Shown: piece by piece, positions 5,836 through 29,598 of the stretch | Layout: every line of letters starts with the position of its first letter | Numbering within the stretch: position 1 is the stretch's first letter | From: Paracoccaceae bacterium | Lineage (GTDB): Bacteria; Pseudomonadota; Alphaproteobacteria; Rhodobacterales; Rhodobacteraceae | Direction: 5' to 3' | NCBI GenBank assembly: GCA_902554705.1 | Contig: CACDPP010000017.1 | Location: 1-38,911, forward strand | Length of the DNA stretch: 38,911 nt | Program-made: the position numbers and the translations under genes | Notes under the pieces: model-generated | Told to the model about the DNA's origin: nothing | The model's input: only the letters and a program-made list of their open reading frames with translations | Database searches by the model: none

Positions 5836-5968
5836 AATGAACAAATAAGATCTTATGTTCAATAACCCATTCTACTTAATACTACGAAAAGATCTACTTT
5901 CCGTTTGGTAACCTTTGACAAAAAAAGTAATTCAAATGAAATAATATTGCAAATAAATGGAGGATTAA

Positions 5969-8071: not shown

Positions 8072-8110
8072 CTATTCTCAGGCTCCTGTGCTTTTTACAA
8101 TTTTGCGATA

Positions 8111-9445: not shown

Positions 9446-9496
9446 GGTCCTCTCCCAATCTTTTAAATATAATGGTATAACAATATTCAGTTTGCG

Positions 9497-10843: not shown

Positions 10844-10854
10844 TAAATCTATCC

Positions 10855-11538
10855 TCAGTAGGCATCTGAATTATCAATGTTAAAATTATACAATTTTCTT
10901 GCTGAACCATATCTTTTAAATTCTTCGGGTTTTGCATCGCATTCGGCTTCCGAGAGTAATTGTTTGAGTAGGTCCATGTGTTCGGGACGCATTTCTTTCT
11001 GTTCACAATCAGTTCCCAAACTTTTAACACATCCTCGAATAAATAATTTTGCTTCGTAAAGGCTATCGCCTAAAGCATCTCCAGCATCACCGCAAACAAT
11101 AAGATTACCTGATTGAGCCATGAACGCAGACATGTGTCCAATATTTCCATGGACTACGATATTTATGCCTTTCATTGAAATTCCGCAACGAGAAGAGGCA
11201 TTTCCCTTTATGACTAGTAGACCTCCTTGACCAGTAGCTCCAGCATATTGGCTGGCATCACCCTCAATTACAACTTTGCCACTCATCATATTTTCGGCCA
11301 CACCAGGACCCACTGAACCTTTCACAGTTATGTTGGCTTGCTGGTTCATTCCACCGCAGTAGTAGCCCGTAGAGCCCTTAATGTTTACTTCGATCGGTGC
11401 ATCTATTCCAACAGCAATTGAATGGCTACCCTTTGGATTAATGACCTCCCATGATGTTTGGTTAGTTTTCTCTTTCTGTTCCTGTAAAGCACTATTTAGA
11501 CTTCTAAGACCGTGTTTTTGTAAATCAAATTGTAACAT
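10855..11538 (-). CDS. mgsB: N-methylglutamate synthase beta-helix subunit (GlxC/MgsB)
   Basis: A 227-residue protein equivalent to the C-terminal (GXGXG) domain of the glutamate synthase large subunit. It shows repeating turns such as GYYCGGMNQQANITVKGSVG, GKVVIEGDASQYAGATGQGG and NIVVHGNIGHMSAFMAQSG. The start is taken as ATG 11538 (MLQFDLQ); the longer frame runs back into the mgsA gene. Only one base separates it from the mgsA stop, which suggests translational coupling. It is a structural partner of MgsA and MgsC in the methylamine assimilation complex. Confidence 0.85.
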   Translation of the reverse strand: MLQFDLQKHGLRSLNSALQEQKEKTNQTSWEVINPKGSHSIAVGIDAPIEVNIKGSTGYYCGGMNQQANITVKGSVGPGVAENMMSGKVVIEGDASQYAGATGQGGLLVIKGNASSRCGISMKGINIVVHGNIGHMSAFMAQSGNLIVCGDAGDALGDSLYEAKLFIRGCVKSLGTDCEQKEMRPEHMDLLKQLLSEAECDAKPEEFKRYGSARKLYNFNIDNSDAY

Positions 11539-11539
11539 T

Positions 11540-12436
11540 TTAGTGTTTCCAAAAATATACTGTTGCAGGCTCCGGCTCCCAAACATGGGCACTTTCGATT
11601 TTTGGTAAATCTACCAATGCCTGATACTCACTTCCAAACGCAACATACTGATCGGTTTCGGCCATAACCGCTGGTTTACATGCGATCTGATCCCGAACAA
11701 CCCCAAATCCATTCTCAGTTCCAACTACAAAAGTGAAAAATCCATCTAAATCCTTTAAAGAGCTTTCAAGCGCTTCACCTAAACTTGCACCGTTTTTAAT
11801 TTTCCAAGTTAAATAAGCAGCTCCCACCTCAGTATCATTTTCTGTCTCTATAAGAATTCCTTCTCTTCTCAGTTTGCGGCGTAAAGAGTTATGGTTGGAG
11901 AGCGATCCATTATGCACCAGACATTGATCTACGCCTGTGTTAAAGGGATGCGCTCCCAAAGTTGTAACAGCAGATTCTGTTGCCATGCGAGTGTGGCCAA
12001 TTCCATGCCGTCCGGACATTTGCGTGATATGGAACCTTTGAGTAACTTGCTCAGGCAAACCAACTTCTTTGTAAATTTCTAGTGATGAACCATGGCTCAT
12101 AATTCTTATTTCAGGATTGAAAGCCGTCAGTACCTCGGAGAATTTATTTTCCACATTTTGATCTAAAGTGACTACTGCATGCGTATCGTTGACTCGAAAG
12201 TCCAAAATGCGATTAAGATGCTTGCTTAGATAATTTGGTAAATCTTGAAAATCTCTTTCAGCATTTTCAGATTGAATGGTGAATTTTGACCTACCTGCAT
12301 GTTCATCAGCGTAGATTGCGATCCCTGCGCTGTCGGGTCCTCTGTCAGTCATAGTTACTAACATGTCGCTAAGAAGTCTGCCAAGACACGGCTGTAAGCT
12401 GGCATCCTTCAAAAATAATCCTACTATACCACACAT
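11540..12436 (-). CDS. mgsA: N-methylglutamate synthase glutaminase-like subunit (GlxB/MgsA)
   Basis: A class II (Ntn) glutamine amidotransferase of 298 residues. The start at 12436 gives M-C-G-I-V-G, placing the catalytic Cys at position 2 after Met removal; ATGGAGCAAATA precedes it. Other family motifs: DRGPDSAGIAIY, GIGHTRMATESAVTTLGAHPF, CLVHNGSLSNHNSLRRKL and ENDTEVGAAYL. In MgsABC it is thought to release methylamine from gamma-glutamylmethylamide and channel it to the FMN subunit. It is the first gene of the mgsA-mgsB-mgsC-gmaS operon on this strand. Confidence 0.85.
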   Translation of the reverse strand: MCGIVGLFLKDASLQPCLGRLLSDMLVTMTDRGPDSAGIAIYADEHAGRSKFTIQSENAERDFQDLPNYLSKHLNRILDFRVNDTHAVVTLDQNVENKFSEVLTAFNPEIRIMSHGSSLEIYKEVGLPEQVTQRFHITQMSGRHGIGHTRMATESAVTTLGAHPFNTGVDQCLVHNGSLSNHNSLRRKLRREGILIETENDTEVGAAYLTWKIKNGASLGEALESSLKDLDGFFTFVVGTENGFGVVRDQIACKPAVMAETDQYVAFGSEYQALVDLPKIESAHVWEPEPATVYFWKH

Positions 12437-12509
12437 TATTTGCTCCATTTCGATAAAGGAGAGACTGTTCACATTGCAGAGAAATTACCCAAACCGTTAT
12501 AACAACTTA

Positions 12510-12739: not shown

Positions 12740-13123
12740 TCACTCATTTTGATCTATGACCCGTTTAGCCACTCTAAAACACTCTAGTGCTTGAGGCACA
12801 CCGCAATAAATACCTATTACATGAATAATGGCACGAATTTCTTCCTTTGAGACGCCATTATTGAGAGCGCCTTTGCAATGGATTTCCCATTCGTGCATTT
12901 TTCCTAGTGCCCCAATCATGGAGAGGTTCATCATACTGCGAGTTTTTGCAGGTATCACCTCATCGCCCCACCCAAAGCCCCAACACCACGCAGTCATTGC
13001 CTCCTGAAAAGGGCGAGTAAAGTCATCTGCAGCAGCGAGGTTTTTTTCAACGTAGCCTTCTCCAAGAGTGGATTTGCGTTGTTCTAGCCCTTTAAGAAAT
13101 AAATCTTCGTTAAATGTGCTCAT
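12740..13123 (-). CDS. carboxymuconolactone decarboxylase-family protein
   Basis: A 127-residue all-helical CMD/AhpD-like protein. The typical run is MTAWCWGFGWGDEVIPAKTR, then SMMNLSMIGALGKMHEWEIH, then NGVSKEEIRAIIHVIGIYCGVPQALECFRVA. Start ATG 13123 (MSTFNED) has GGAGAAA upstream; the longer frame adds residues without homology. No CxxC peroxidase pair is seen, so a decarboxylase- or lactonase-like role is more likely than alkylhydroperoxidase. It is the last gene on the minus strand of the carnitine-type cluster, 266 bases after the acyl-CoA synthetase. Its substrate there is unknown. Confidence 0.8.
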   Translation of the reverse strand: MSTFNEDLFLKGLEQRKSTLGEGYVEKNLAAADDFTRPFQEAMTAWCWGFGWGDEVIPAKTRSMMNLSMIGALGKMHEWEIHCKGALNNGVSKEEIRAIIHVIGIYCGVPQALECFRVAKRVIDQNE

Positions 13124-13389
13124 AAGTTTTTCTCCACAGTTTCTTTTATCCATTTTTGTAAAAGCAGAATAGAATGTTCCGAATTCACAACACAAGAAAG
13201 GTTAACAGCCAGCGACCAGGTAAATATCTTCTTATACCGTTGTTTCACGATCTTGGACTGTCATCTAGCGAAAAATTTTATTTTCCAGCCTTTTCACAGA
13301 ATACCAACCACTACGCATAAAATCACGCTTGTCCGTATTGTTATTTGCCCCTTGAAAGGTGGCTAAAAAGCCGATGCCATTGAAATCAG

Positions 13390-16667: not shown

Positions 16668-17558
16668 CTAAGTATCAGCACCCCTCAGCTTAAGTTTATT
16701 ACGCGCCTCCTGTGGCGTTACTACCCGCGCACCCATTCGTTCAATAATCTCACGAGCACGAGAAACTAACTGAGCATTTGTCGCCAAAACACCGCGTTCA
16801 AGATAAATATTATCTTCTAAACCGACACGTACATTACCTCCCAGAGCAACTGCTGCAGCCATCATTGGCATTTGGCCGCGACCAATACCAAAACTTGCCC
16901 AACTCGCACCTGTGGGCAATTGTGACTTCATGGCAACCATTGTTTCGACAGTTTGCTCGGCCCCCCAAGGAATACCCAAACACAATTGGAACATAGGTGG
17001 ATCATTAATTAAACCTTCAGAAATAATTGCCTTTGCAAATCGAATGTGTCCAAGCTCAAAAACCTCCAGTTCAGGTTTAACACCCCAATCACGGGCCATT
17101 TCAGCCATTTTTCGTAATGTAGGTGGGGTAGAGATATAGATCATATCTGTGTCAGAAAAGTTTAACGTACCACAGTCAAGCGAACAGATTTCAGGCAAGC
17201 ACTCTTTGATATGAGCGAGCCGCTCTTCCGGACCGATCATATCCGTTCCGGGTCCAGGTTGAGCTGGATCGGAGGCATCCGAAATCCAGTCACCACCCAT
17301 GCCAGCCGTAATATTTATAACTATATCGGTATTACTGTCTCGCACCCGATCCACAATCTCTTTAAAAAGTTTTGGATCACGCGACCCTAAACCCGTTTCG
17401 GGGTCTCTTGCGTGTATGTGAGCAATTGAAGCACCAGCTTCAGCAGCATCAATTGCAGCTTTTGCAATATCTTTCGGGGTAACCGGAACATGGGCACTTT
17501 TTCCAGTCGTGTCCCCAGCGCCAGTTACGGCACAAGTCAAAATTACGTCATTTTGCAT
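16668..17558 (-). CDS. beta-keto acid cleavage enzyme (BKACE, DUF849), probably dehydrocarnitine cleaving
   Basis: A 296-residue Zn-dependent TIM-barrel BKACE. Motifs: CAVTGAGDTTGKSAHVPVTP, the metal-binding HIHARDPETG, VINITAGMGG, DCGTLNFSD, PELEVFELGHI, FGIGRGQMPMMAAAVALGGN and VRVGLEDNIYLERG. The family condenses a beta-keto acid with acetyl-CoA to give acetoacetate and a new CoA ester; on 3-dehydrocarnitine it yields betainyl-CoA. That substrate is suggested by the carnitine dehydrogenase gene nearby. The start at 17558 follows GAGGAGATTGAC; the longer frame adds 22 unrelated residues. It is divergent from the AraC-type regulator, with a 116-bp intergenic region containing an inverted operator-like motif. 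Confidence 0.88.
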   Translation of the reverse strand: MQNDVILTCAVTGAGDTTGKSAHVPVTPKDIAKAAIDAAEAGASIAHIHARDPETGLGSRDPKLFKEIVDRVRDSNTDIVINITAGMGGDWISDASDPAQPGPGTDMIGPEERLAHIKECLPEICSLDCGTLNFSDTDMIYISTPPTLRKMAEMARDWGVKPELEVFELGHIRFAKAIISEGLINDPPMFQLCLGIPWGAEQTVETMVAMKSQLPTGASWASFGIGRGQMPMMAAAVALGGNVRVGLEDNIYLERGVLATNAQLVSRAREIIERMGARVVTPQEARNKLKLRGADT

Positions 17559-17674
17559 GTCAATCTCCTCGTCAAAGATAAATAGGCTGGAAAGCAATGC
17601 AGATTTTTGTCGATTAAACGCCACAGATTAAGTAAAAGTGGCGAAAAATCTGACATGGAGGATGAACCGTAATC
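17559..17674. promoter_or_regulatory. divergent promoter with nested inverted repeats
   Basis: CAGATTTTTGTCG at 17600-17612 is mirrored by TGGCGAAAAATCTGA at 17639-17653. Inside these arms, CGCCAC (17619-17624) is mirrored by GTGGCG (17638-17643). The right arm is repeated exactly at 23152-23166 in the other divergent promoter of this region, and a close variant, CGACATAAATCTG, lies at 26263. It is probably an operator for the AraC-type regulator encoded immediately to the right. The right arm is 22 bases before that gene's start, so autoregulation is plausible. Confidence 0.65.
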
Positions 17675-18745
17675 ATGGAAATAGACATTCTACCTAAAAT
17701 GGAACGTGCGCAAATTCATATGGTATTCATAGTCGTGCCAAGGTTCAACATTACGACCCTAATAACTATGATTGAAACACTACGAATCGCAAACTATTTG
17801 GCACCTACTTCTACATTTTCTTGGGAAGTTGCTTCGTTCGACGGTTCAGAAATTACAGCTAGTAATGGCATGACTGCGAGAATTAAGACTGCAAATGATA
17901 ACTTACAGCCTGCAGAATTTGTTTTTATTCTTGGAAGTTGGGGAACTGAGCATTACCACAATCAAAAATTAACCGCCTGGCTCAGAAAACGTGCTCGCGC
18001 GGGTGAGCGGATTTGTGGCGTAGAGCTGGGGTCTTACATTGTAGCGCGGGCTGGGTTGCTGGACGGCAAGTTGGCTACTATACACTGGTCATGGCTCAAT
18101 GGGTTTAAAGAAAACTTTGATCGTGTCGAAGTGGAAGAGAGCCTATTCACACTAGACAGTAAAGTAATGACGTGTTCGGGTGGATTAGCAGGCGTAGATT
18201 TAATGTTACGCCTAATTGAAGAGCTCAACGGAAGTAGCTTTTCTGGTGAAATTGCAGATCAGATGCTGCATCACCCAATTCGGTCTGCGACTTCTCCTCA
18301 GCGCAGCACAATGGGACGGAGTACCGAAACGATGCGCCCACTGTTGCGCGAAGCGATGACATTAATCGAAAATAATATAGAAGAGCCTCTTACAGTACCA
18401 CAGATTGCAAATCTTTTAGGTATTTCGCAGCGCCAATTGGAGAGGCAATTCAAGAAAAATGTTGGATGCACAGTAGTGCAATTTGGTTTGTTGAAGCGTT
18501 TGCAAAACGCACGCTTGCTGCTAATTTCCACAGACATGAGCATCAGGCAAATAGCCACGGCTTCTGGGTTTAATACAATGTCACATTTCGCCTTTTCTTT
18601 TGGAAAGTTTTTCGGAAGACGGCCCTCGGATTATCGGGAAGCTTGGCCTAAAGAGGAACCTGCACCAACTTGGCCAGGTTCCCTTTCAGATTTCCTTGAT
18701 ACCTTAAATGGCAAACCACCCAAAGATCACTTCAGACGAGCCTGA
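17675..18745 (+). CDS. GlxA-family AraC-type regulator (CdhR-like)
   Basis: A 356-residue regulator. The N-terminal DJ-1/PfpI-like domain (about residues 15-185) has FVFILGSWGTEHYHN and ICGVELGSYIVARAGLLDGK; the Cys is there but catalysis is not expected. The C-terminal AraC double helix-turn-helix (about 220-320) has TVPQIANLLGISQRQLERQF and SIRQIATASGFNTMSHFAFSF. This is the layout of CdhR, GbdR and related sensors of carnitine and glycine betaine. GGAGGATGAACC precedes the ATG. It lies between BKACE and carnitine dehydrogenase and its 3' end overlaps the latter's by 19 bases. It is the obvious candidate to control the cluster. Confidence 0.88.
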   Translation: MEIDILPKMERAQIHMVFIVVPRFNITTLITMIETLRIANYLAPTSTFSWEVASFDGSEITASNGMTARIKTANDNLQPAEFVFILGSWGTEHYHNQKLTAWLRKRARAGERICGVELGSYIVARAGLLDGKLATIHWSWLNGFKENFDRVEVEESLFTLDSKVMTCSGGLAGVDLMLRLIEELNGSSFSGEIADQMLHHPIRSATSPQRSTMGRSTETMRPLLREAMTLIENNIEEPLTVPQIANLLGISQRQLERQFKKNVGCTVVQFGLLKRLQNARLLLISTDMSIRQIATASGFNTMSHFAFSFGKFFGRRPSDYREAWPKEEPAPTWPGSLSDFLDTLNGKPPKDHFRRA

Positions 18746-19674
18746 CGTAATGCATTCAAAACTCCAACAATTTCGCGATCACGCTGAGCGACCATATCCT
18801 CAAAAGCTTGGTCCTTTGCTACTGTATTGCAGCCATCAACCATACGGTTCCTCAAATCTTTAGTAAGTTCAGGAGCCTCCAGTCTTGTCCAAGGTAATTT
18901 AAGCGCTGGACCGAACTGATCCAAATTTGTGGCCATTCCTCCCGTGCCACATGCAACATGAAAAGCCATGCATTGTCCTTGCGCGGCCATACGCGGTGCG
19001 GGTCCGTTCATCAGAGCATTATCAATATCCTCTGGTGTAGCCTCATCGTTGGCAACCATGTGTAAGGCTTCACGCCATAGTGCTTCCTGCAGACGAGTAG
19101 CCACAAACCCTGGAATTTCTTTTTTCATCATCAATGGAGCTTTGCCTGCAGCCCTATAAAATTCTCCAGCCCAGGCAACCGCTTCCGGCGCAGTCCTCTT
19201 TCCACCCACAATTTCAACCAGTGGCAAAAGGTAAGGCGGGTTGAAGGGGTGACCAATAACTGTTCTTTCTGGAGTTGAGCAATCAGACTGAATATCACTC
19301 ATCATCAATCCAGAAGTTGAAGATCCAATAATTATAGATGGAGGTAAGATTTTCCCCATTTCTGAATATAATTTTTGCTTGACCTCAAGCCTCTCTGGCC
19401 CGCTTTCCTGTACGAAATCAGCACCATCAAGAGCTTCTTCCAAGTCAGTCACAATGCGCAACCTGTCCATCGATGCGCTGGGTGCAAGTCCCAACTCAGC
19501 AAGGCTAACCCAAGCTGTTTTTAAAATAGACATAAACGAGCTTTTTTCACTCTTATCGTGCAAATATGCAGTAACATCATACCCGCGCGCTAGGAAATGC
19601 GCAGTCCACCCTCCTCCAATTGGACCTGCCCCAAGACTTGAAATACGCTTTACAGAATTGGGATTGGAATACAT
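18727..19674 (-). CDS. lcdH: L-carnitine 3-dehydrogenase
   Basis: A 315-residue NAD-dependent 3-hydroxyacyl-CoA-dehydrogenase-fold enzyme. It closely follows the known bacterial carnitine dehydrogenases as I recall them: LGAGPIGGGWTAHFLARGYDV, DADFVQES-type ADFVQESGPERLEVK, GSSTSGLMMSD, VIGHPFNPPYLLPLVEIVGG with the catalytic His, KKEIPGFVATRLQEALWREA and FGPALKLPWT. It oxidises L-carnitine to 3-dehydrocarnitine. Many relatives carry a C-terminal thioesterase domain that would release glycine betaine from betainyl-CoA; this one stops without it. ATG 19674 overlaps the CaiD stop (TGATG), so the genes are translationally coupled. Confidence 0.88.
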   Translation of the reverse strand: MYSNPNSVKRISSLGAGPIGGGWTAHFLARGYDVTAYLHDKSEKSSFMSILKTAWVSLAELGLAPSASMDRLRIVTDLEEALDGADFVQESGPERLEVKQKLYSEMGKILPPSIIIGSSTSGLMMSDIQSDCSTPERTVIGHPFNPPYLLPLVEIVGGKRTAPEAVAWAGEFYRAAGKAPLMMKKEIPGFVATRLQEALWREALHMVANDEATPEDIDNALMNGPAPRMAAQGQCMAFHVACGTGGMATNLDQFGPALKLPWTRLEAPELTKDLRNRMVDGCNTVAKDQAFEDMVAQRDREIVGVLNALRQARLK

Positions 19675-20477
19675 CACTCACCTTTAAAATTTGGGTTACG
19701 TTTTTCTACGAATGCGGCAACGCCTTCTTTGGCATCGGATGACTGGAGCATCTTTCGATATATTGGCATTGGATCAGAACGCATTTTATGAAATGCTTTT
19801 TCTAAAGGTACACATTCAATTTCGCGTTGCACTTCCTTAACAGACTGCATTGCTAATGGCGCTGACCAAGCGATTGAGGCTGCCCATTCGCGCGCTGCGT
19901 CCATGAGCTGCTCTTTGGGAACAACCTTATTAACTAAACCATAATGCGCAGCCTCTGCGGCCGTCATACGACGCCCCAATAAAAACATTTCCATAGCTAT
20001 ATTGTGAGGAATACGACGTGGTAGGCGCTGAAGAGCTCCTGCATCAGGCACAATTCCTAAGGGCATTTCAGGAAGCCCAAATTCCACATGATCTGCAGCA
20101 ATTATTAAATCACATCCCATGGCCATCTCAAACCCACCGCCTATTGCAAGGCCATTTACGGCTGCAATGACGGGCTTATTCAATATCCAATTTTCAGTTA
20201 GTCCGGTAAAGCCGCCAAATCCATACTCATCAGCTTCCCACCAGTTATCGAGCTGCATTTCTCCATCATTTAAAGCCTTAAGATCCCAGCCAGCGGAAAA
20301 AATCTTTTCTCCACCACCAGTGAGTATTGCACAACGTAAATCCTTGTCCTCGTGGAGTTGCTGAAAAGCCGCTGCTAATGCCTGGGATGTTGGCACGTCA
20401 ATGGCGTTAACCTTCCCTCGCTCTAATGTAACCTCCAATATGTGCCCATCACGGCGGGTTGTTACTCCATCCGACAT
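19674..20477 (-). CDS. caiD: enoyl-CoA hydratase, crotonobetainyl-CoA hydratase-like (CaiD)
   Basis: A 267-residue crotonase-fold enzyme. KIFSAGWDLKAL, FGGFTGLTENWILNKPVIAAVNG, the oxyanion-hole GGGFEMAMGCDLIIAAD and FGLPEMPLGIVPDAG match E. coli CaiD segment by segment from memory. It would hydrate crotonobetainyl-CoA to carnitinyl-CoA. The start at 20477 overlaps the monooxygenase stop by one base (TAATG), with AAAGGAGG nine bases upstream; the longer frame is an artefact. Position between the monooxygenase and carnitine dehydrogenase puts CoA-dependent and CoA-free carnitine steps in one transcript. Confidence 0.85.
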   Translation of the reverse strand: MSDGVTTRRDGHILEVTLERGKVNAIDVPTSQALAAAFQQLHEDKDLRCAILTGGGEKIFSAGWDLKALNDGEMQLDNWWEADEYGFGGFTGLTENWILNKPVIAAVNGLAIGGGFEMAMGCDLIIAADHVEFGLPEMPLGIVPDAGALQRLPRRIPHNIAMEMFLLGRRMTAAEAAHYGLVNKVVPKEQLMDAAREWAASIAWSAPLAMQSVKEVQREIECVPLEKAFHKMRSDPMPIYRKMLQSSDAKEGVAAFVEKRNPNFKGE

Positions 20478-21523
20478 TAAAGGCCTCCTTTTTGAAATTC
20501 GGGAATGACTTCGTCGCAAAATAATTTAAGTGAACGCTTCTGTGCGGCGTGACTTAGTCCCATCGAAGCATAGTAAATGAACTCATCAACTCCAAGTTGT
20601 TCATAGATCTTAATTTTTTCGATTACAGTTTCAGGAGAACCAAACATGAGGTTCTGTTCTAGCATCAATGGCTCATATTGCTCACGCCCCTCAAGCTCAT
20701 GCAATGGAATTTCTTTTGGAAAACCATTTTTCACATCATCCAAGTTACGGTATAAATTTTCGAATTGCCCCAAAACCCGAGTAATTGCATTTATGGCTTC
20801 ATCGCGATCTGTTTGATTTTCATAAACGGCGGTGTGACGCATTAACGCAAAAATTGGATCTGCTCTGCCCCCATGTTTTGCAATAGCTTCATCTAACTGG
20901 CGCTTATAAAGTTCAGCTTCAGCATGAGGACGCGTGAACGGCCAGCACATTATGTTGGCATTGTTGGCAACGGCGTAATCATATGTGACAGGTGATCTGG
21001 CTGCCACCCAAATGCGCGGCTCAGTCTGAATTGGCTTTGGCACTGAGGTTGACGTTGGAAATTTCCAATATTCTCCGTTATGGGCGTAATCCCCTTTCCA
21101 CAACGCCAGCACAGCAGGCAACATCTCTTGCATGTACTTATAACCATCCGTCTGCAGTAAACCTGGATGCATTCGGTCGAACTCACGTTGATAAGCGCCA
21201 GACCCAAGACCAAACTCCAAGCGACCTCCACTAATCAAGTCAAGGAACGCCGCCTCTCCAGCTAGCCTTATGGGATGCCAATAGGCAGAATTCACAACAG
21301 CTGTTCCAAGACGCACTTTACTTGTTTCACTGGCCCACCAGGTAAGTATCTGAAAAGGATTAGGCGCAATAGTCATTTCCAACGCATGATGTTCCGCAGC
21401 CCATACTATATTGAACCCGCCATCCTCCGCCATTTGTACCATCTCGAGCGTATGGCGGGCCACGTCATCCATAGCGAGACTGTCGTCCAAACGTTCAAGA
21501 TTTACAGCTAGTTGAAATTTCAT
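20477..21523 (-). CDS. luciferase-like flavin-dependent monooxygenase (TgnB-like candidate)
   Basis: A 348-residue bacterial-luciferase-family oxygenase: MVQMAEDGGFNIVWAAEHH, LGTAVVNSAYWHPIRLAGEA, ISGGRLEFGLGSGAYQREFD, PRIWVAARSPVTYDYA and FGSPETVIEKIKIYEQLGVDEF. Such enzymes use FMNH2 from a separate reductase. With the aldehyde dehydrogenase 70 bp upstream in the operon and the divergent RidA, hydrolase and DUF1185 genes, it matches the composition of the trigonelline pathway, where TgnB opens an N-methylpyridinium ring. Substrate is inference, and an oxygenase for another betaine remains possible. AGAGGAAACTAAT precedes the ATG. The only reductase domain in view is at 6411. Confidence 0.85.
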   Translation of the reverse strand: MKFQLAVNLERLDDSLAMDDVARHTLEMVQMAEDGGFNIVWAAEHHALEMTIAPNPFQILTWWASETSKVRLGTAVVNSAYWHPIRLAGEAAFLDLISGGRLEFGLGSGAYQREFDRMHPGLLQTDGYKYMQEMLPAVLALWKGDYAHNGEYWKFPTSTSVPKPIQTEPRIWVAARSPVTYDYAVANNANIMCWPFTRPHAEAELYKRQLDEAIAKHGGRADPIFALMRHTAVYENQTDRDEAINAITRVLGQFENLYRNLDDVKNGFPKEIPLHELEGREQYEPLMLEQNLMFGSPETVIEKIKIYEQLGVDEFIYYASMGLSHAAQKRSLKLFCDEVIPEFQKGGL

Positions 21524-21593
21524 ATTAGTTTCCTCTTTTTTGTTCTTTTACCGCCTCGTCATCCAACTTTAGATTTAGGCTAAATCTCAGTTA

Positions 21594-23075
21594 CTATCGC
21601 ATTACAAAAGGGTTCGCCATTGGGTCATCTGACGTATTCATCCATATGGTCTTGGGACGGGTATAGTCATAAATCGCTTGGAATCCACTTTCGCGACCAT
21701 AGCCAGACCCTTTTACGCCTCCGAACTCTGCTATTGGCGAAACGACCCGATAGGTATTAACCCATACAATGCCTGCTCTCACAGCACCTGCCATACGCAA
21801 GGAACGTGCTGAATTTTGGGTGAATATTCCTGCGGCTAGTCCATGCTCCGTATCATTAGCTAGAGAGAGAACTTCATCCTCTGTCTTAAAACGCTGAACG
21901 CATAAAACAGGTCCAAAAAGTTCTTTATCCACAATTCTCAAGCCTTGGTTTGGGCATTCAATAATTGTAGGCTCATAAAATAGACCTGATTTATCCTCTG
22001 GTTGCTTACCTCCAACCAATATCTTAGCGCCCTCCTGTTTGGCATTTTTTACCTCAATCTCGATATTCTCTAATTGTCCCAGCGTGCATAGCGGACCCAT
22101 TTGGGTATCTTCTTCTAAGGGGTCACCAATTATAATTTGACGGGTTAAAGCAATCATCTTTTCAAGAAACTCATCTGCAATATCTTCATGCAAGTAGAGG
22201 CGCGAACCGGCGACGCAGCTTTGTCCAGTCGCCCCAAAAATACCAGCAATTGAGGCATTAACGGCGCTTTCAATATTTGCATCATCGAACACGATGAAGG
22301 GTGACTTACCACCCAATTCAAGAGAAACTTCTGCAAAGTTACGTTTGACGTTTTCTAATACGTGGCGGGCGGCGTTAGGGCCGCCAGTGAAAGAAACACG
22401 GGCGACGTGTGGATGTGAAGTTAGGACTCGCCCACAAGGTTCTCCATGACCAGTAACAATATTTACAACACCTGGTGGGATACCTGCTTGCTCAATTAAT
22501 TTGCCAAATTCTAACATAGCAGCACTAGCATGTTCAGAAGCTTTGAGTACTACAGTATTTCCAGCGGCTAACGCAGGGCCAATTTTGACTGCCACTAGGA
22601 ATAATTGAGAGTTCCACGGCACAACAGCGGCGACGACGCCAAGTGGTTCTCGCTTCGTGAACACAAACATATCGGGCTTATCAATTGGTAAAGTTTCACC
22701 ACTTACCTTATCAGCACAGCCTGCAAAAAAATGGAAGAACTCTGCAATATACTTAGCTTGCCAGCGCGTTTCTTTCAGCATTTTGCCTGTATCAATGGTT
22801 TCAATGCGACCCAAACTTTCAGAGTTGTCAGCGAGCAAGTCAGCGAGCTTTCGAAGGCATTTTCCACGCTCTGTTGGTGTAAACTTTGACCATGGGCCTT
22901 CGTTGAATGCCTTGTGAGCAGAAGAAACGGCTCGATTAACGTCCGCTTCAGTTGCCTCCGGAACCCGGCTCCAAACATTGTCTGTGTTTGGGTTCACACT
23001 ATCAAAAACACCCCCATCAGATGCATCTACCCAATCGCCGTCGATTAGCATTTGATAATTTTTAATGTCCTCCAT
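21594..23075 (-). CDS. NAD(P)-dependent aldehyde dehydrogenase
   Basis: A 493-residue ALDH with all core motifs: VVPWNSQLF near 152, SLELGGKSPF with the general base Glu near 253, GQSCVAGSRL with catalytic Cys near 287, and EFGGVKGSGYGRESG near the end. It is first in the operon before the luciferase-like monooxygenase and is divergent from RidA. In the trigonelline route an ALDH (TgnD) oxidises the ring-opened hydroxybutyrolactone/semialdehyde, and this position suits that. Betaine aldehyde or another semialdehyde are alternatives that motifs cannot separate. AGAAGGA lies upstream of the ATG, and an operator-like motif is 77-91 bases upstream. Confidence 0.9.
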   Translation of the reverse strand: MEDIKNYQMLIDGDWVDASDGGVFDSVNPNTDNVWSRVPEATEADVNRAVSSAHKAFNEGPWSKFTPTERGKCLRKLADLLADNSESLGRIETIDTGKMLKETRWQAKYIAEFFHFFAGCADKVSGETLPIDKPDMFVFTKREPLGVVAAVVPWNSQLFLVAVKIGPALAAGNTVVLKASEHASAAMLEFGKLIEQAGIPPGVVNIVTGHGEPCGRVLTSHPHVARVSFTGGPNAARHVLENVKRNFAEVSLELGGKSPFIVFDDANIESAVNASIAGIFGATGQSCVAGSRLYLHEDIADEFLEKMIALTRQIIIGDPLEEDTQMGPLCTLGQLENIEIEVKNAKQEGAKILVGGKQPEDKSGLFYEPTIIECPNQGLRIVDKELFGPVLCVQRFKTEDEVLSLANDTEHGLAAGIFTQNSARSLRMAGAVRAGIVWVNTYRVVSPIAEFGGVKGSGYGRESGFQAIYDYTRPKTIWMNTSDDPMANPFVMR

Positions 23076-23215
23076 CTCGGAAATCCTTCTTTGGCTGATT
23101 CTTATTCAAAGACTCTTTAATTATTCCTGCTCAGGAAAAAACGACATATCTTGGCGAAAAATCTGAAATTTACAACTTGCGATCGGGGCACGATATTTTA
23201 AAAGGAGGCAAGGCA
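23076..23215. promoter_or_regulatory. divergent promoter of ALDH and RidA operons
   Basis: Contains TGGCGAAAAATCTGA at 23152-23166, identical to 17639-17653, and at nearly the same distance from the minus-strand gene start (77-91 here, 81-95 there). A perfect 14-base palindrome, TTCCTGCTCAGGAA, lies at 23124-23137. AAAGGAGG at 23201-23208 is the RidA ribosome binding site. Confidence 0.65.
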
Positions 23216-23617
23216 ATGGCACAAAAAAAAGAAGTTATCGGTGGCCCGCTTGAAATCAACGGACGTGTCCTATCGTTGTCTCGGGCCATACGTGCAGGTG
23301 ATTTTGTTTTTCTGACTGGACAGATCCCAATGCGAGACGGCGTTCCAATGACAGATGGCTCAATCCAGGATCAAACGCGCGCTATTCTGGACGATATTAC
23401 AGAAACTTTGGCGACAGCAGATTGTACGCGTGAAGATGTAGTTAAAGCGATGGTATGGCTGCGCGAACGTGAAGATTTTCCAGGGTTCAACGAAATATAT
23501 GGTGAATATTTTCCAGTTGAGCCCCCAACACGCTCGGCCATTGTGAGTGACCTATTAGTTGACGCAAGAGTTGAAGTTGAAGTGGTGGCGTATTGTCCAT
23601 TGGGAGGTAGTGCGTGA
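23216..23617 (+). CDS. RidA-family enamine/imine hydrolase-like protein
   Basis: A 133-residue RidA/YjgF/Rid protein: AIRAGDFVFLTGQIP, QTRAILDDITETLATADC, NEIYGEYFP, and PTRSAIV with the conserved Arg near position 106, ending VEVEVVAY. Rid proteins deaminate reactive enamines or imines. ATG 23216 follows AAAGGAGG; an in-frame TTG at 23177 is ignored. The stop overlaps the start of the next gene (GTGA), so the two are coupled. Next to a flavin oxygenase and hydrolase, it may clear an N-methyl enamine intermediate, as RutC does in pyrimidine breakdown. Confidence 0.9.
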   Translation: MAQKKEVIGGPLEINGRVLSLSRAIRAGDFVFLTGQIPMRDGVPMTDGSIQDQTRAILDDITETLATADCTREDVVKAMVWLREREDFPGFNEIYGEYFPVEPPTRSAIVSDLLVDARVEVEVVAYCPLGGSA

Positions 23618-24417
23618 CGACACTCGCACCAGATGGCACGAATTTTACTTTTAGCGGTCCTAACATGGCGCCAGTTGTCGTGCTAATTCATGGGCTCGGA
23701 TTAAACAAAGACTGCTGGCAGTGGATGATACCAGATCTCAAAGATTCTTATCGCGTTCTAAGTTACGATTTATATGGCCACGGTGGATCTAGTGATCCAG
23801 CCACTGAACCCAATCTGTCACTATTTTCAAAACAACTGAAAGATCTCCTGAATTACTGTGAAATTCAAAAAGCTGTAATCATTGGTTTTTCACTTGGAGG
23901 TATGGTCGCTCGCCGCTTTGCCCAAGATGCTCCACAAAAGTCGCAGGGAATGGTAATTTTGCATTCGCCACATAAACGAAGCAACGCTGCACAAGCGGCA
24001 ATTCTAAAACGTGTCGATCAAGCTCGCACTATGGGACCTCAATCAACAGTGGAGGCAGCCCTGGAGCGTTGGTTTACAGATCCCTTTCGTCAAGCCAACC
24101 CAAAATTAATGAATGAAATCAGACAGTGGGTGATGGCTAACCGCAAAGAAGTCTATCATACTATTTATAAGGTGTTGGCAACTGGTATCGACGAAATTGT
24201 GAAACCAAACCCTGCTTTAATTTGTCCAAGTCTGGTCATTACAGGTGATCAAGATTTTGGCAATGGCCCAGAAATGGCCTTTGCAATTTCTGCTGAGATA
24301 CCGGGCGCCAAAACTCTAGTATTGCCCGCTCTGAGACACATGGCATTGGCTGAGTCTCCCAAAGCAGTAAACAAACCAATAAGGGACTTTCTAGATAGTT
24401 TAGATTTATTCAAATAA
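23614..24417 (+). CDS. alpha/beta hydrolase (TgnC-like candidate)
   Basis: A 267-residue alpha/beta-hydrolase. The oxyanion loop is VVLIHGLGLNKDCW, the nucleophile Ser near 93 is in GFSLGGMVA, the acid is Asp near 214 (ITGDQDFG) and the His near 242 is in ALRHMALAE. It starts with GTG overlapping the RidA stop and has GGGAGG upstream. In the known trigonelline pathway a hydrolase splits the N-methylformamido-methylene-succinate intermediate into methylamine, formate, CO2 and succinate semialdehyde. Alternatively it could be the thioesterase missing from the carnitine branch (betainyl-CoA or carnitinyl-CoA). Motifs do not decide between these. Confidence 0.87.
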   Translation: MTTLAPDGTNFTFSGPNMAPVVVLIHGLGLNKDCWQWMIPDLKDSYRVLSYDLYGHGGSSDPATEPNLSLFSKQLKDLLNYCEIQKAVIIGFSLGGMVARRFAQDAPQKSQGMVILHSPHKRSNAAQAAILKRVDQARTMGPQSTVEAALERWFTDPFRQANPKLMNEIRQWVMANRKEVYHTIYKVLATGIDEIVKPNPALICPSLVITGDQDFGNGPEMAFAISAEIPGAKTLVLPALRHMALAESPKAVNKPIRDFLDSLDLFK

Positions 24418-24565
24418 GCTTAGAAAAACTTAGTTGGAAGAGTATTGAGTTTAAAAGTAAATTCAGATAAATATTTTAGCCGATAGAGCTGTGAAGACTT
24501 AAGAAATGAGGTCTACATTGGCTTTAAAAATAGACTGTAATATACTATTTAATTGGAGAACAGCC

Positions 24566-25174
24566 GTGCTTCCTGAATTGCGAAAAGTTGTAACTTTTGA
24601 TGAGGATATTTACGCTGAGGGTGGGCGTGCATCCAACCCTCCACTGCGTATGATTGGCGTAGCTGCTGTTGTAAAAAATCCTTGGTTTGGCCGGGGATTT
24701 GTTGAAGATCTGTCACCTGAGATCAAGCGAATGGCGCCTTATTTGGGAAAATTGATAACAGACAAACTGATTTCATTAGCAGGTTCTGGTGATGCCATAG
24801 AGGCGTATGGAAAAGCCTGCATAGCGGGTACTAGTTGCGAGGTTGAACATGCGTCTGCTTTGATACACACCCTACAATTTGGTAATTTCTACAGAGAGGC
24901 TGTCGGAGCGAAAAGTTACTTGGGTTTTACAAACACGCGCGGTCCAGCAAATACTCAAATTCAAATTCCATTAATGGATAAACATGACACTGGACGCCGC
25001 TCTCATTATCTTACAGTCCAGTTTTCGGTTTATGACGCCCCAGCAGTCGATGAATTGGTTGTAGCACTGGGTGCTGCAACTCGTGGTCGTCCGCATCACC
25101 GTATTGGAGATCGATATTCGGACCTAGCAGCTATGGGGCGCGACGTAGAAAATCCCGCGGGCGTGAAAGATTAG
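24566..25174 (+). CDS. DUF1185 'amino acid synthesis' family protein
   Basis: About 202 residues, matching DUF1185 from its first residues (LPELRKVVTFDEDIYAEGGR, PLRMIGVAAVVKNPWFGRGFVEDL) through AGTSCEVEHASALIHTLQFGN and FSVYDAPAVDELVVALGAATRGRPHHRIGD. The GTG at 24566 with GGAGAA upstream is preferred; the frame extends 20 codons further back with no similarity. Biochemistry of the family is poorly known. It follows the RidA-hydrolase pair by 148 bases. The trigonelline pathway also includes an uncharacterised conserved protein, but I cannot confirm it is of this family. It ends one base from the convergent ureohydrolase. Confidence 0.85.
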   Translation: MLPELRKVVTFDEDIYAEGGRASNPPLRMIGVAAVVKNPWFGRGFVEDLSPEIKRMAPYLGKLITDKLISLAGSGDAIEAYGKACIAGTSCEVEHASALIHTLQFGNFYREAVGAKSYLGFTNTRGPANTQIQIPLMDKHDTGRRSHYLTVQFSVYDAPAVDELVVALGAATRGRPHHRIGDRYSDLAAMGRDVENPAGVKD

Positions 25175-26578: not shown

Positions 26579-27589
26579 ATGAAACTAAAAAATCTTACGG
26601 GAATTTCGATTGCGTCTGCTATGACGATTTTCGGTTCGTCTGCTTTCGCCGCCGACTGTGGTGATATCACTATGGCAGATATGAACTGGCCGTCAGCAAC
26701 GCTTATGGCTAATGTAGATAAAATTATACTTGAAGCTGGGTATGGTTGCTCAGTGGAAATGGTGGTTGGAGCTACAACAACAACATTCGCATCTATGAAT
26801 GAAAAAGGCCAACCTGATGTTGCTGGTGAGCTTTGGATAAATGCTGTTCGCGAGCCTTTGATGGCTGCGATGGACGAAGGTCGCTTGCACTCGGCTTTGA
26901 ATGGACCAATCACTGAGTTGGGCGAGGGCTGGTGGATACCACCATATACTGCTGCAAATCATCCAGAATTGAAGACGGTTCTTGATATCCTCGAGCGCCC
27001 CGATCTTTTTCCACACAAAGAAGATCCATCAAAAGGCGCCTTTGTTGGATGTCCTGCAGGCTGGGGTTGCCAATTGTCAAACATCAACTTGTTCCGCGCC
27101 TTTGAAATGGAGAAAAAAGGCTGGGTATTGATTGATCCGGGTTCACAAGCTGGACTTGACGGTTCGATTATCAAAGCCAATGAACGAGAGGAAAACTGGT
27201 TTGGCTATTATTGGGCACCAACGTCGATGATAGGTAAATACGACTTGAAACTAGTTCCATTCGGTGTTCCATTTGCTGGTGCAGAAAACTGGGACGGATG
27301 TATTGCGAAAGCCGAGCAGGATTGTGCAGATCCAAAGCCTTCCGCGTGGACTGAATCCGAAGTACACACTGTTGTAACAACCAACTTTAAAGATAAAGCT
27401 GGTCCCGCAATGGATTACTTTGCAAAACGGATTTACCCAGGTTCAGTAATGGGCTCGATGCTGGTCTTCATGGAAGAAGAGCAAGCTGACGGTGTCGATG
27501 CTGCGGCTGAATTCATGTCTCGTCATGAAGATCTGTGGATGAGTTGGCTTCCTGCTGACGTTGCAGCTAAAGTAAAAGCATCACTTTAA
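26579..27589 (+). CDS. proX: betaine-type ABC transporter substrate-binding protein
   Basis: A 336-residue OpuAC/ProX-family periplasmic binding protein with a signal peptide cleaved at SSAFA-ADCGD. Trp/Tyr-rich patches (DMNWPSATLM, GELWINAVREP, GEGWWIPPYTA, NWFGYYWAPTSM) suit an aromatic cage for a quaternary ammonium group. The group includes binders of glycine betaine, carnitine, choline and TMAO, and the exact ligand is not predictable here. A cysteine pair (VGCPAGWGC) may form a disulfide. It is first gene of proX-proW-proV, with a terminator-like hairpin after it that probably raises its expression over the membrane parts. Confidence 0.9.
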   Translation: MKLKNLTGISIASAMTIFGSSAFAADCGDITMADMNWPSATLMANVDKIILEAGYGCSVEMVVGATTTTFASMNEKGQPDVAGELWINAVREPLMAAMDEGRLHSALNGPITELGEGWWIPPYTAANHPELKTVLDILERPDLFPHKEDPSKGAFVGCPAGWGCQLSNINLFRAFEMEKKGWVLIDPGSQAGLDGSIIKANEREENWFGYYWAPTSMIGKYDLKLVPFGVPFAGAENWDGCIAKAEQDCADPKPSAWTESEVHTVVTTNFKDKAGPAMDYFAKRIYPGSVMGSMLVFMEEEQADGVDAAAEFMSRHEDLWMSWLPADVAAKVKASL

Positions 27590-27604
27590 ATTAAATAAAT
27601 TTAG

Positions 27605-27639
27605 AAAGCCTGTTGGCCTTAGAGCTTGCAGGCTTTTTT
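27605..27639 (+). terminator. hairpin between proX and proW
   Basis: AAAGCCTG (27605-27612) pairs with CAGGCTTT (27629-27636) across a 16-base loop and leads into a run of six T. It is probably a partial terminator or 3' stabiliser for the binding-protein transcript, a common arrangement between binding-protein and permease genes. Confidence 0.7.
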
Positions 27640-27662
27640 ACTAGGCATAATGGGGTTGCGTT

Positions 27663-28553
27663 ATGAGTTTTTTTACTAAGTTTCCTGCAATGGAACGCGG
27701 AGATTTAAGAGACTTGAAAAAAGGGATAGATTCTTCCTTTAAAGATTTTTCAAGGTATTGGGGGGAAAGTATCGAAACTTTTTTTGACCCACTTTTCTAT
27801 TTTTTGGTTAATTTCGAAAAACTACTTTTGGCAACGCCTTGGCCGATTATTATACTGATCGTGGCTGCGTTAAGTTATATTGGTTCCCGTAGCTGGAAAT
27901 TATCTCTAGGGGCTGCAGTTTCATTTTTGCTAATCGGTTATCTAGGCATGTGGGAAAATACCATGTCAACGGTTGCCCTGATCTCCGTCGCAACAATAAT
28001 CTGCATTGCTGTTGGTATTCCAATCGGCATTGCGATGTCTAAATCTGATAGACTGCAGGCAATGATCACGCCCGTGTTAGACATAATGCAGACTATTCCT
28101 ATTTTCGTGTACCTATTGCCAGTTGTAATGTTGCTTGGCATTGGGAAAGTGCCTGGTCTTATCGCTGTCTGTGTGTATGCAATGCCTCCAATTGTGCGTC
28201 TGACCAATCTGGGCCTACGTCTGGTAGATAAAGAGATTCTGGAGGCGGCAGACGCATTTGGATCAAATTATCGACAGCGGCTCTTTAGTGTTCAACTTCC
28301 GTTAGCGTTACCTAATATTTTCGCCGGGGTAAACCAGACGATTATGATGGCTCTAGCTATGGTGGTTATTGCCTCAATGATTGGTGTGAAAGGTCTTGGA
28401 GTTCCAGTGCTTCAATCCATTCAAAATCAATATTTGGCTCTTGGCTTGATGAATGGTCTCGCAATCGTTGCTCTTGCGATTATTTTTGATCGGGTTTCTC
28501 AGCAGTATGGCAAACGCTTACAGCGTCACCGGGAAGGTGGACACGATGTCTGA
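27663..28553 (+). CDS. proW: betaine-type ABC transporter permease
   Basis: A 296-residue OpuAB/ProW permease. After a hydrophilic N-terminal stretch of about 50 residues come about seven hydrophobic segments. Family motifs: ILDIMQTIPIFVYLLPVVML, EILEAADAFGSNYRQRLFSVQLPLALPNIFAGVNQTIMMAL (the EAA loop and after) and ASMIGVKGLGVPVLQSIQ. It works with ProX and ProV to import a quaternary ammonium solute. Its stop overlaps the proV start by eight bases. Confidence 0.92.
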   Translation: MSFFTKFPAMERGDLRDLKKGIDSSFKDFSRYWGESIETFFDPLFYFLVNFEKLLLATPWPIIILIVAALSYIGSRSWKLSLGAAVSFLLIGYLGMWENTMSTVALISVATIICIAVGIPIGIAMSKSDRLQAMITPVLDIMQTIPIFVYLLPVVMLLGIGKVPGLIAVCVYAMPPIVRLTNLGLRLVDKEILEAADAFGSNYRQRLFSVQLPLALPNIFAGVNQTIMMALAMVVIASMIGVKGLGVPVLQSIQNQYLALGLMNGLAIVALAIIFDRVSQQYGKRLQRHREGGHDV

Positions 28554-29598
28554 TTATAAAATCGAGATAAAAAATCTCTATAAAATCTTCGGCCCAAAAG
28601 ATAAAAGCATGGTTGATCTGGTGGCCAATGGAATGAGCAAACAGGAGCTTTTGGACCAGCACAAACATGTTTTAGGTCTTAGAGATGTCAATATAGGCAT
28701 TTCCGCAAACTCAATCAACGTCATAATGGGACTTTCTGGGTCTGGAAAATCAACTTTGATCCGACACATCAACAGACTTATCGAGCCAACTGTTGGCGAA
28801 ATTATCGTTGATGGTGATGACGTACTCGCGATGAACCCAGAAAGAATCCGAGATTTTCGACGCTTTGGAGCGTCAATGGTCTTTCAAAAATTCGGTTTGA
28901 TGCCACATCGTACAGTTTTGGAAAATTGTATGTACGGTCTAAACATTCAGGGTGTTGAAACAGGTGATGCGGAAAAGCGAGCTAAGCATTGGCTAAATCG
29001 CGTAGGCTTGTCCGGTTTTGAGGATCGGTTTCCCGCACAGCTTTCAGGCGGGATGCAGCAGCGTGTTGGCCTGGCGCGAGCGCTTGCGACAGATGCTGAT
29101 ATTTTGCTTATGGATGAGGCTTTTTCTGCCCTTGATCCACTAATCCGAGCCGATATGCAGGGTATTTTGCTGGATTTGCAGAATGAATTGCATAAGACGA
29201 TTGTGTTTATCACCCATGATTTGGACGAAGCTCTACGGATAGGAGATGAAATTGCAATCTTGCGCGACGGAGAATTGATCCAGAAAGGAAACCCTCAAAG
29301 CATAGTTTTAAAACCAGCGAACGATTACGTTGCTGATTTTACAAAAGACGTGAACAGGGCGCGAGTTTTGACCCTTAACACTCTATCTCATGGGTCCTCC
29401 GGTACCAAAAAAGGTTTGCCCTTAAATAGTGATCTTTCTATTGAGGAAGCTATGCAAGAGATGATCGCGTCAGATCATAACTTGGTTACAGTTATGAAAG
29501 AAGATAAGTCTATTGGGCAAGTTTCTCTCAACGATATGGTTGCAGCAATTGCTAAGCCCAAAACAACAGAATCCGGCGAAGCAAATGCTTATCGCTAG
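28546..29598 (+). CDS. proV: betaine-type ABC transporter ATP-binding protein
   Basis: A 350-residue OpuAA/ProV ATPase: the N-terminal extension typical of this subfamily (MSKQELLDQHKHVLGLRDV), Walker A GLSGSGKST near 62-70, Q-loop VFQKFGLMPHRTV, signature QLSGGMQQRVGLARAL, Walker B ILLMDEAFSALD and the switch His in FITHDLDEAL. The C-terminal 70 residues or so resemble a shortened CBS region that senses ionic conditions in relatives. The start at 28546 (MSDYKIEI) overlaps proW by eight bases; the frame is open further upstream but inside proW. Confidence 0.93.
   Translation: MSDYKIEIKNLYKIFGPKDKSMVDLVANGMSKQELLDQHKHVLGLRDVNIGISANSINVIMGLSGSGKSTLIRHINRLIEPTVGEIIVDGDDVLAMNPERIRDFRRFGASMVFQKFGLMPHRTVLENCMYGLNIQGVETGDAEKRAKHWLNRVGLSGFEDRFPAQLSGGMQQRVGLARALATDADILLMDEAFSALDPLIRADMQGILLDLQNELHKTIVFITHDLDEALRIGDEIAILRDGELIQKGNPQSIVLKPANDYVADFTKDVNRARVLTLNTLSHGSSGTKKGLPLNSDLSIEEAMQEMIASDHNLVTVMKEDKSIGQVSLNDMVAAIAKPKTTESGEANAYR

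Follow-up and report, generated by a model that had tools for sequence, protein, structure and literature searches.

Which compound is consumed through a gene set that combines a luciferase-like flavin monooxygenase (LLM) and an aldehyde dehydrogenase (ALDH) with a RidA family protein, an alpha/beta hydrolase and a DUF1185 protein? The question is raised by a stretch of 38,911 nucleotides (the window), contig CACDPP010000017.1 (C17) of a Paracoccaceae bacterium (assembly GCA_902554705.1, 1.85 Mb, 69% complete). LLM, ALDH, a crotonobetainyl-CoA-hydratase-like protein (ECH) and a relative of L-carnitine dehydrogenase (CDH) form one leftward group; across the divergent gap that it shares with them, RidA, hydrolase and DUF1185 point to the right. 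A sequence-only reading of this DNA had taken the five genes for a ring-opening module acting on N-methylpyridinium compounds such as trigonelline or homarine, with RidA added. All five open reading frames (ORFs) lie where it placed them, on the strands it gave, and each has a Pfam match above its cut-off. Judged from sequence, the set is a genuine and widespread branch within a known class of ring-opening systems, apparently distinct from the trigonelline (tgn) operon, and a natural compound other than trigonelline or carnitine is likely consumed through it.

Relatives of the window were taken from a scan of genome contigs, in which the best 80 of 533 by similarity were kept, a sample biased to close kin. 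In 44 of them more than 7 kb was available on either side of the LLM gene; these are called fully flanked. Partner genes were scored as present or absent in these loci by identity thresholds of our own choice. Three operon types are distinguished: type A (the clade of the window), type B (rhizobial operons) and type C (tgn-like operons). Unit 1 denotes LLM, ALDH, hydrolase, flavin reductase, DUF1185 and RidA, and unit 2 the carnitine-like genes for ECH, CDH and a beta-keto acid cleavage enzyme (BKACE). Individual loci carry L numbers.

Gene content compared with the trigonelline operon

The trigonelline pathway of Acinetobacter baylyi reportedly proceeds by ring cleavage through an N-formyl intermediate, with release of methylamine, formate, CO2 and succinate semialdehyde. 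The annotated tgnA/B/C operon on a plasmid of Acinetobacter sp. PK01 (L057) was used as the tgn reference and stands in for A. baylyi ADP1. Its order is a GntR gene, DUF1185, hydrolase, tgnA, tgnB and tgnC, followed further on by a succinate semialdehyde dehydrogenase (SSADH) and a carboxymuconolactone-decarboxylase-family (CMD) gene. The window likewise has DUF1185, an alpha/beta hydrolase, a flavin reductase, an LLM and an ALDH, which in PK01 belong to one operon, and a nearby CMD-family gene. The part-by-part homology that had been proposed is thus borne out (26–60% identity): LLM is 36.6% identical to tgnB over 344 aa, ALDH 54.1% to tgnC over 488 aa, the reductase domain 46.6% to tgnA over 148 aa, the hydrolase 25.9% over 243 aa, DUF1185 59.9% over 197 aa and CMD 52.1% over 119 aa. 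The DUF1185 gene of the annotated operon fits the conserved hypothetical protein described for the tgn pathway. The pairing of ALDH with TgnD and of the hydrolase with TgnC was swapped: in PK01 tgnC is annotated as a dehydrogenase and the hydrolase is a separate gene with no tgn label. When 22 window proteins were compared with the PK01 SSADH, the two ALDHs among them matched at 33.3% and 30.6%; the search was confined to these proteins.

The AlphaFold model of the LLM has a mean pLDDT of 89.6 and a luciferase-type fold. Its best match in the PDB is 8cbb (E 1.7e-21, 22% identity), and luciferase-type monooxygenases match at about 22%; with its 36.6% the protein is far nearer to annotated TgnB than to the best-matching solved structures. 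In the passages available of two papers, TgnB is named solely as a network node (PMC11354265) and trigonelline is reported merely as a metabolite (PMC4213383).

In contrast to the PK01 operon, the window adds RidA, its reductase is joined to a CoA-transferase, its regulator is GlxA-type rather than GntR, and the set is joined to genes for ECH, CDH, BKACE, an acyl-CoA dehydrogenase (ACAD) and an acyl-CoA synthetase (ACS). Type C operons were also found in rhizobia, Pantoea, Ruegeria sp. SCSIO 43209, Leisingera and Aquabacterium, and in two genomes from the family to which the window belongs (L044, L045), where the CMD protein beside the operon is 81–83% identical to that of the window. In L044 (around 5700–12000) the type C operon has rpoC on one side and ribosomal protein genes on the other, all identified by eye, and adjoins a CMD-family gene 83% identical to the window's. 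Type B is carried by Agrobacterium fabrum C58 pAt (L050), Azospirillum (L048), Shinella (L060) and Thalassospira (L061). These operons resemble the window in having flavin reductase, ALDH, LLM and hydrolase with DUF1185, and their LLM falls on the same side of a deep (unrooted) split as type A. However, they form a clade of their own, with another regulator, other transporters and no carnitine-like unit in the stretch examined.

Phylogeny and conserved residues

The LLM tree (65 rows, quick IQ-TREE, with SH-aLRT values as the only support) separates type C from types A and B at 100 on a long branch; type B is one clade at 100, and the window lies deep in type A. Twelve rows from the class sample have no assigned type in this tree, and three of them beside type A (L030–L032) were treated as A in the other trees and in residue counts. 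For ALDH, types A, B and C each occupy one side of a branch (SH-aLRT 97, 98 and 95); the two outgroup rows sit on saturated branches, so that the root is meaningless. The reductase gives A at 99 and B at 100 and the hydrolase A at 93 and B at 99, with two changes needed for type C in either tree. Since ALDH, reductase and, more weakly, hydrolase split along the three types, these genes travel as a set; the operon genes thus largely move together, DUF1185 less strictly. The trees against Tgn proteins that had been proposed place LLM and ALDH outside the tgn-type clades. Of the suggestion that the window performs the same or a sister reaction, the sister reaction stands; the same reaction on trigonelline is unlikely, the window proteins lying in a clade apart from the tgn-type ones.

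Positions were called common when at least 85% of rows kept them within each of the three types. By this measure 69 LLM and 54 DUF1185 positions are common, as are Arg122, Arg133 and Arg152 of the hydrolase together with its Ser93, Asp214 and His242, which in this fold would form the catalytic triad. Positions fixed differently between A and C number 24 in LLM, 13 in ALDH, seven in the hydrolase, two in the reductase and none in DUF1185. The common positions and the fixed differences together fit a conserved chemistry with a changed substrate. The expectation of a different betaine substrate is likely correct. In its general idea the sequence-only reading holds, whereas a specific substrate cannot be derived from sequence.

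Distribution and co-conservation

By LLM, the nearest named relatives are the Rhodobacteraceae single cell AG-343-P20 (99%) and a Planktomarina metagenome-assembled genome (MAG; 91%). The five-gene set recurs in many marine Alphaproteobacteria and beyond. Its carriers include Planktomarina-like Rhodobacteraceae, several Ruegeria and Roseovarius, and uncultured marine Alphaproteobacteria. At E ≤ 1e-60 the LLM was found in 20 of 289 genomes of the class, own genome included, and at E ≤ 1e-40 in six of 16 genomes of the genus (own included, many of them incomplete). Among the 44 fully flanked relatives, ALDH is present in 43, the hydrolase in 38, a GlxA-type regulator in 36, ECH and CDH in 35, DUF1185 and BKACE in 34 each, the reductase in 32 and RidA in 31. 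With this recurrence the grouping is not due to chance, and RidA, proposed as an addition to the tgn scheme, is a real and frequent member of the type A branch. Over all 80 relatives, short contigs included, the counts are 66 for ALDH, 60 for the hydrolase, 49 for ECH and CDH, 48 for DUF1185, 44 for RidA and 40 for the reductase. Nine stretches of viral contigs matched a pattern, and none of them encoded a relative.

Two annotated plasmids, one from Parasedimentitalea marina and one from Aminobacter sp. SR38, have DUF1185, reductase, hydrolase and RidA facing ALDH, LLM, ECH and CDH, and CDH is followed by regulator, BKACE, a Pot-type ATP-binding cassette (ABC) transporter, ACAD and ACS. The window differs from both in that its reductase lies apart and its ABC genes are of another type.

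Several observations were made at the edges of this distribution. An LLM 79–96% identical to the window's occurs on contigs binned as Flavobacteriales, Oceanospirillaceae or Actinomycetota (L083, L089, L094–L098), by transfer or by wrong binning. In an Acidimicrobiaceae MAG a Rieske ring-hydroxylase-type protein (L096:6948-8045; PF00848, PF00355) stands between ALDH and LLM. A thiamine pyrophosphate enzyme adjoins the unit in L026, L028 and five Gammaproteobacteria loci (seven among the matches listed, of nine); its best model is sulfoacetaldehyde acetyltransferase, at 420 against a cut-off of 620. L028 also has an ORF that was called MttB-like by eye, as a lead only.

The flavin reductase and its CoA-transferase fusion

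A two-component LLM requires a flavin reductase partner. The sequence-only reading listed none, yet the window ORF 6411-7592 contains a flavin reductase domain. PF01613 has two matches in the assembly, one in the window (6417-6848, 135 bits) and one on contig C24 beside another LLM. This second LLM (C24:10652-13059) is 22% identical to that of the window and has its own flavin reductase nearby.

In P. marina (L046), CoA-transferase and reductase form a single ORF of 707 aa between hydrolase and DUF1185. Two window ORFs, 7583-8071 and 6411-7592, are collinear with residues 4–160 and 162–553 of this protein; the split of 6411-8071 into two may be genuine or may stem from misassembly. The reductase was seen in 40 of the 80 relatives, and in 31 of these 40 it is fused in one ORF to a full CoA-transferase domain. 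For the L109 protein Pfam supports both domains; in L122 only a fragment of the CoA-transferase part is present, and in L100 it is the hydrolase, not a CoA-transferase, that runs on into the reductase. The L109 protein was scanned in place of the window's broken copy, and its CoA-transferase half scored 412 with the succinyl-CoA:mesaconate model, 296 with succinate:glutarate and 125 with carnitine CoA-transferase, all under the cut-offs. The best models being of the dicarboxylate type, a dicarboxylate substrate is suggested, such as ALDH would make.

Across the 40 loci, 29 have both the fusion and the ECH-CDH unit, two the fusion only, four the unit only and five neither; one of the two fusion-only loci (L153) lies near a contig end. 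The fusion thus goes with the ECH-CDH unit (Fisher p 0.003, from loci that are related and hence not independent).

The carnitine-like unit

CDH, ECH, BKACE, ACAD, ACS and the regulator all resemble carnitine catabolism, with which the window shares homologous CDH, BKACE, ACAD and ACS and the type of regulator. In contrast to that pathway, CDH and ECH fall under curated cut-offs, as does the regulator, several aromatic residues are replaced, and a passing set occurs elsewhere in the genome. On contig C6 a BKACE, a CDH-thioesterase fusion, an ACAD and an ACS stand in a row, and the fusion passes the carnitine 3-dehydrogenase cut-off (697.5 against 592). Between window and C6, identity is 38% for CDH, 52% for BKACE, 50% for ACAD and 32% for ACS. 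The genome has four BKACE genes (contigs C2, C5, C6 and C17).

Fifteen unit 2 rows were compared with five carnitine-type rows, Citricoccus being left out; one of the unit 2 BKACE rows (L158) comes from an over-long ORF. Seven fixed BKACE positions and 22 fixed CDH positions differ. In BKACE the Trp of the five carnitine-type rows is replaced by Arg195 in unit 2, and in CDH Trp becomes Met230, Phe becomes Cys236, Tyr becomes Phe239 and Phe becomes Asn251. The loss of these aromatic residues would argue against a trimethylammonium group. The Citricoccus CDH (L177), whose cluster also contains BKACE and thioesterase, is placed with unit 2 (SH-aLRT 93) yet keeps both Trp. In the BKACE tree the enzymes of the carnitine-like clusters L177 and L178 (Caballeronia) adjoin unit 2 (99), so that carnitine-type BKACEs are not one clade. 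The carnitine-like unit of the window is probably repurposed, with its target changed. The coupling of the monooxygenase to carnitine genes, which had been offered as a hint at the substrate, therefore holds as synteny, LLM forming one tight group with ECH and CDH. As evidence for carnitine itself it fails, given the missed cut-offs and the residues of CDH and BKACE that depart from the carnitine type.

Methylamine and homarine as substrate clues

The glutamine synthetase-like ORF at 8111-9445 scores 651 bits with TIGR03105 against a cut-off of 469.6. Glutamine-synthetase homologues were found in five type A loci (L113, L114, L142, L146, L153) and in the type C locus L056, and homologues of N-methylglutamate synthase (Mgs) genes in L113 and L114 (Ruegeria, type A) and L056. 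GmaS- or Mgs-like genes thus accompany type A loci of three lineages (the window; the two Ruegeria loci; and L142, L146 and L153, which are uncultured Alphaproteobacteria with GmaS-like genes only) and one type C locus, that of Aquabacterium. Their presence with both types suggests a release of methylamine, the role of such genes being presumed from their families. In P. marina, sarcosine oxidase subunits follow the set (L046:29480-31029), which would fit N-methylglycine as a product and also the breakdown of glycine betaine.

RidA acts on alpha-imino acids. Homarine would give such an acid and trigonelline would not; on this chemical argument homarine is the first candidate. A homarine operon, homABCDER, is said to have been described in 2026 by Ferrer-Gonzalez et al. 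in Nature Microbiology and to consist of five genes and a regulator. The window may resemble this system in its type of substrate. According to the passages available, bacteria with hom genes use this N-methylpyridinium carboxylate with the involvement of an N-methylglutamate dehydrogenase (PMC13390433). Ruegeria pomeroyi takes up homarine quickly, with a lifetime of 2 h or less, in passages that do not state the strain (PMC12817926), and is described, in part of another source, as having no confirmed homarine transporter (PMC9723723). The parts available of three papers name no hom genes (PMC9038784, PMC9723723, PMC10041152). In R. pomeroyi SZCCDBG043 the type A protein is the sole member of this LLM family, the second match being a distant LLM, 31% identical over part of the query. 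The quick uptake and this type A LLM keep homarine in play, although the strains may differ. For DUF1185, the passages available connect the family with amino-acid metabolism solely on grounds of structure and genome context (PMC2954203).

Proposed route and competing explanations

From gene content, co-conservation, homology, clade structure and conserved catalytic residues, we infer every reaction, the substrate and the passage of the product of unit 1 into unit 2, with steps modelled on tgn chemistry and the tgnC product name taken from annotation. The flavin reductase would supply reduced flavin to the LLM, which would cleave, next to the charged nitrogen, the ring of a pyridinium-type betaine that bears an N-methyl group. 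ALDH would then convert the aldehyde to an N-formyl-N-methylamino dicarboxylic acid, and the hydrolase would take off the formyl group. RidA, perhaps together with DUF1185, may resolve the enamine or imine and free methylamine, which neighbouring GmaS/Mgs-type genes could recapture. In this lineage the opened acid would probably also be activated by the reductase-fused CoA-transferase and finished by the ECH-CDH-BKACE unit. That type A is a two-component flavin monooxygenase system of the Tgn kind, opening such a ring as a separate branch, is a proposal from our analysis for which we see an evenly balanced chance. More tentative, and in our view possible but doubtful, is the fuller claim that an abundant N-heteroaromatic betaine of the sea is degraded by a new route: a Tgn-like module would be joined, through the fusion of reductase and dicarboxylate CoA-transferase, to a carnitine-derived beta-oxidation unit that has lost its trimethylammonium site and takes the ring-opened acid as far as acetoacetate and an acyl-CoA.

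Several points weigh against this proposal. Unit 1 or parts of it occur without ECH-CDH in Neomegalonema, Acidimicrobiales, Roseovarius-like loci (L112, L118, L120, L122) and Gammaproteobacteria; no ECH-CDH was seen in the type A loci of the Gammaproteobacteria, Acidimicrobiales and Neomegalonema among these, several of which lie on short contigs. R. pomeroyi SZCCDBG043 carries the ECH-CDH unit in two separate places. Units 1 and 2 may therefore work as unconnected pathways that share a regulator. Methylamine of another origin could be what the GmaS/Mgs genes are for, the hydrolase is just 26% identical to the tgn hydrolase, and the DUF1185 tree is less clean than the others, with three changes for type A and four for type C. 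The 24 LLM positions fixed differently between A and C mean that the substrate need not be a pyridinium at all, and homarine stays a candidate proposed from sequence and gene context.

A single carnitine or gamma-butyrobetaine pathway is one competing reading of the set: ALDH would make gamma-butyrobetaine from its aldehyde, or LLM would cleave the C-N bond, and ECH, CDH and BKACE would finish the chain. ECH and CDH in the gene group of the LLM and in the locus of 35 of the 44 fully flanked relatives, the GbdR-like regulator and the betaine-type ABC transporter all speak for it, as do the grouping of the Citricoccus CDH (93) and of the L177 and L178 BKACEs (99) with unit 2. R. pomeroyi DSS-3 has a four-gene carnitine importer (SPO2995-2998; PMC10130141), which may correspond to the Pot-type ABC genes of L171. 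However, CDH (303 against 414 and 261 against 592) and ECH (295 against 500) miss their curated cut-offs, the passing carnitine 3-dehydrogenase has a BKACE of its own on another contig, and unit 2 has other residues in place of aromatic ones that are invariant in five carnitine-type rows, while Citricoccus keeps both Trp. Moreover, hydrolase, RidA and DUF1185 should not be needed on such a route, and the LLM stands in loci of other groups without carnitine-like genes. Cut-offs, residues and the second carnitine cluster make a plain carnitine pathway unlikely. The set could instead be the hom operon or its orthologue, a reading supported by the many marine Rhodobacterales among the titles of the 80 loci, by the uptake of homarine in R. 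pomeroyi (PMC12817926, strain not stated in the passages available) with a type A LLM as the only one of its family in SZCCDBG043, and by the presumed fit of RidA to an alpha-imino acid. The R. pomeroyi genome here comes from strain SZCCDBG043, not DSS-3, and the ring of homarine may be the target of other enzymes. The reported gene count of homABCDER is better matched by the GntR-led type C operon, which has five genes plus GntR, and we consider identity with hom rather unlikely.

An ordinary tgn operon would explain the common gene set and the homology. It is very unlikely, because LLM, ALDH, hydrolase and reductase all fall in separate clades, 24 LLM positions are fixed differently and a GlxA-type regulator, not a GntR, stands beside the set; plain orthology to tgn was rejected on the trees. 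A pyrimidine ring-opening set like Rut unites the same mix of folds (LLM, RidA, alpha/beta hydrolase and flavin reductase). Here RidA reaches 47.8 against the RutC cut-off of 169.1 and the hydrolase 63.7 against the RutD cut-off of 238.5, and there is no RutA model among the best 25 of 32 LLM matches. A Rut-like pathway was rejected on the RutC and RutD scores and is barely conceivable.

Features of the locus

Table 1. Genes of the window that belong to or surround the ring-opening set, with positions in the window.
Feature	Position	Strand	Evidence or remark
CoA-transferase family III (N-terminal) + flavin reductase (C-terminal)	6411..8071	-	two overlapping ORFs, 7583-8071 and 6411-7592
Type III glutamine synthetase-like (GmaS candidate) + N-methylglutamate-synthase-like MgsCBA genes	8111..12472	-	
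CMD-family protein	12740..13195	-	also found with tgn-type operons
NDP-forming acyl-CoA synthetase (ACS)	13390-13917, 13886-15484	-	homologues in L046, L047, L109
Acyl-CoA dehydrogenase (ACAD)	15481-16635	-	homologues in L046, L047, L109
BKACE	16668..17624	-	PF05853 339 bits; paralogue of BKACE in the genome's carnitine cluster
GlxA/AraC-type regulator, GbdR-like	17675..18745	+	NF052371 244 bits, under cut-off of 480
CDH, 3-hydroxyacid dehydrogenase like L-carnitine dehydrogenase, divergent	18727..19677	-	NF005471 303/414 bits, NF005716 261/592 bits
ECH, crotonobetainyl-CoA-hydratase-like	19674..20519	-	NF002936 294.8 bits, cut-off 500; overlaps LLM end as listed
LLM, oxygenase component, TgnB relative	20477..21523	-	PF00296 185 bits
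ALDH, TgnC relative	21594..23075	-	PF00171 541 bits
RidA family protein (enamine/imine deaminase type)	23177..23617	+	PF01042 84 bits
Alpha/beta hydrolase, counterpart of tgn-operon hydrolase gene	23614..24417	+	PF00561 90 bits
DUF1185 protein	24506..25174	+	PF06684 226 bits; found with all three operon types
Glycine-betaine/choline-type ABC transporter (binding protein, permease, ATPase)	26579..29598	+	candidate importer

The RidA ORF has a TTG start as listed, with an in-frame ATG further inside, and carries the motif PTRSAIV, whose arginine is presumably the catalytic Arg of RidA. DUF1185 is the sole copy found in the genome at its 69% completeness. The ABC binding protein (26579-27589) matches PF04069 (OpuAC) at 156 bits, and homologues of the transporter occur in type A loci L085, L087, L088, L091, L128 and others. 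An agmatinase/ureohydrolase-family gene (25176-26162) adjoins DUF1185; homologues stand in the same locus in L148, L150 and L028 at 61–70% identity and in L082 at 95%.

Implications

Planktomarina-like Rhodobacteraceae, Ruegeria, Roseovarius and other marine Alphaproteobacteria are groups common in the ocean. If an N-methylpyridinium betaine is indeed opened, the set would show which organisms use a major dissolved nitrogen compound; with any other substrate, it would direct attention to a betaine so far missing from the known ocean currencies. As cultured Ruegeria species carry the set, it is directly testable. For DUF1185, which has solved structures but no assigned function, it provides a context and conserved residues. 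Moreover, it offers an example of how a carnitine-like pathway may be duplicated and repurposed.

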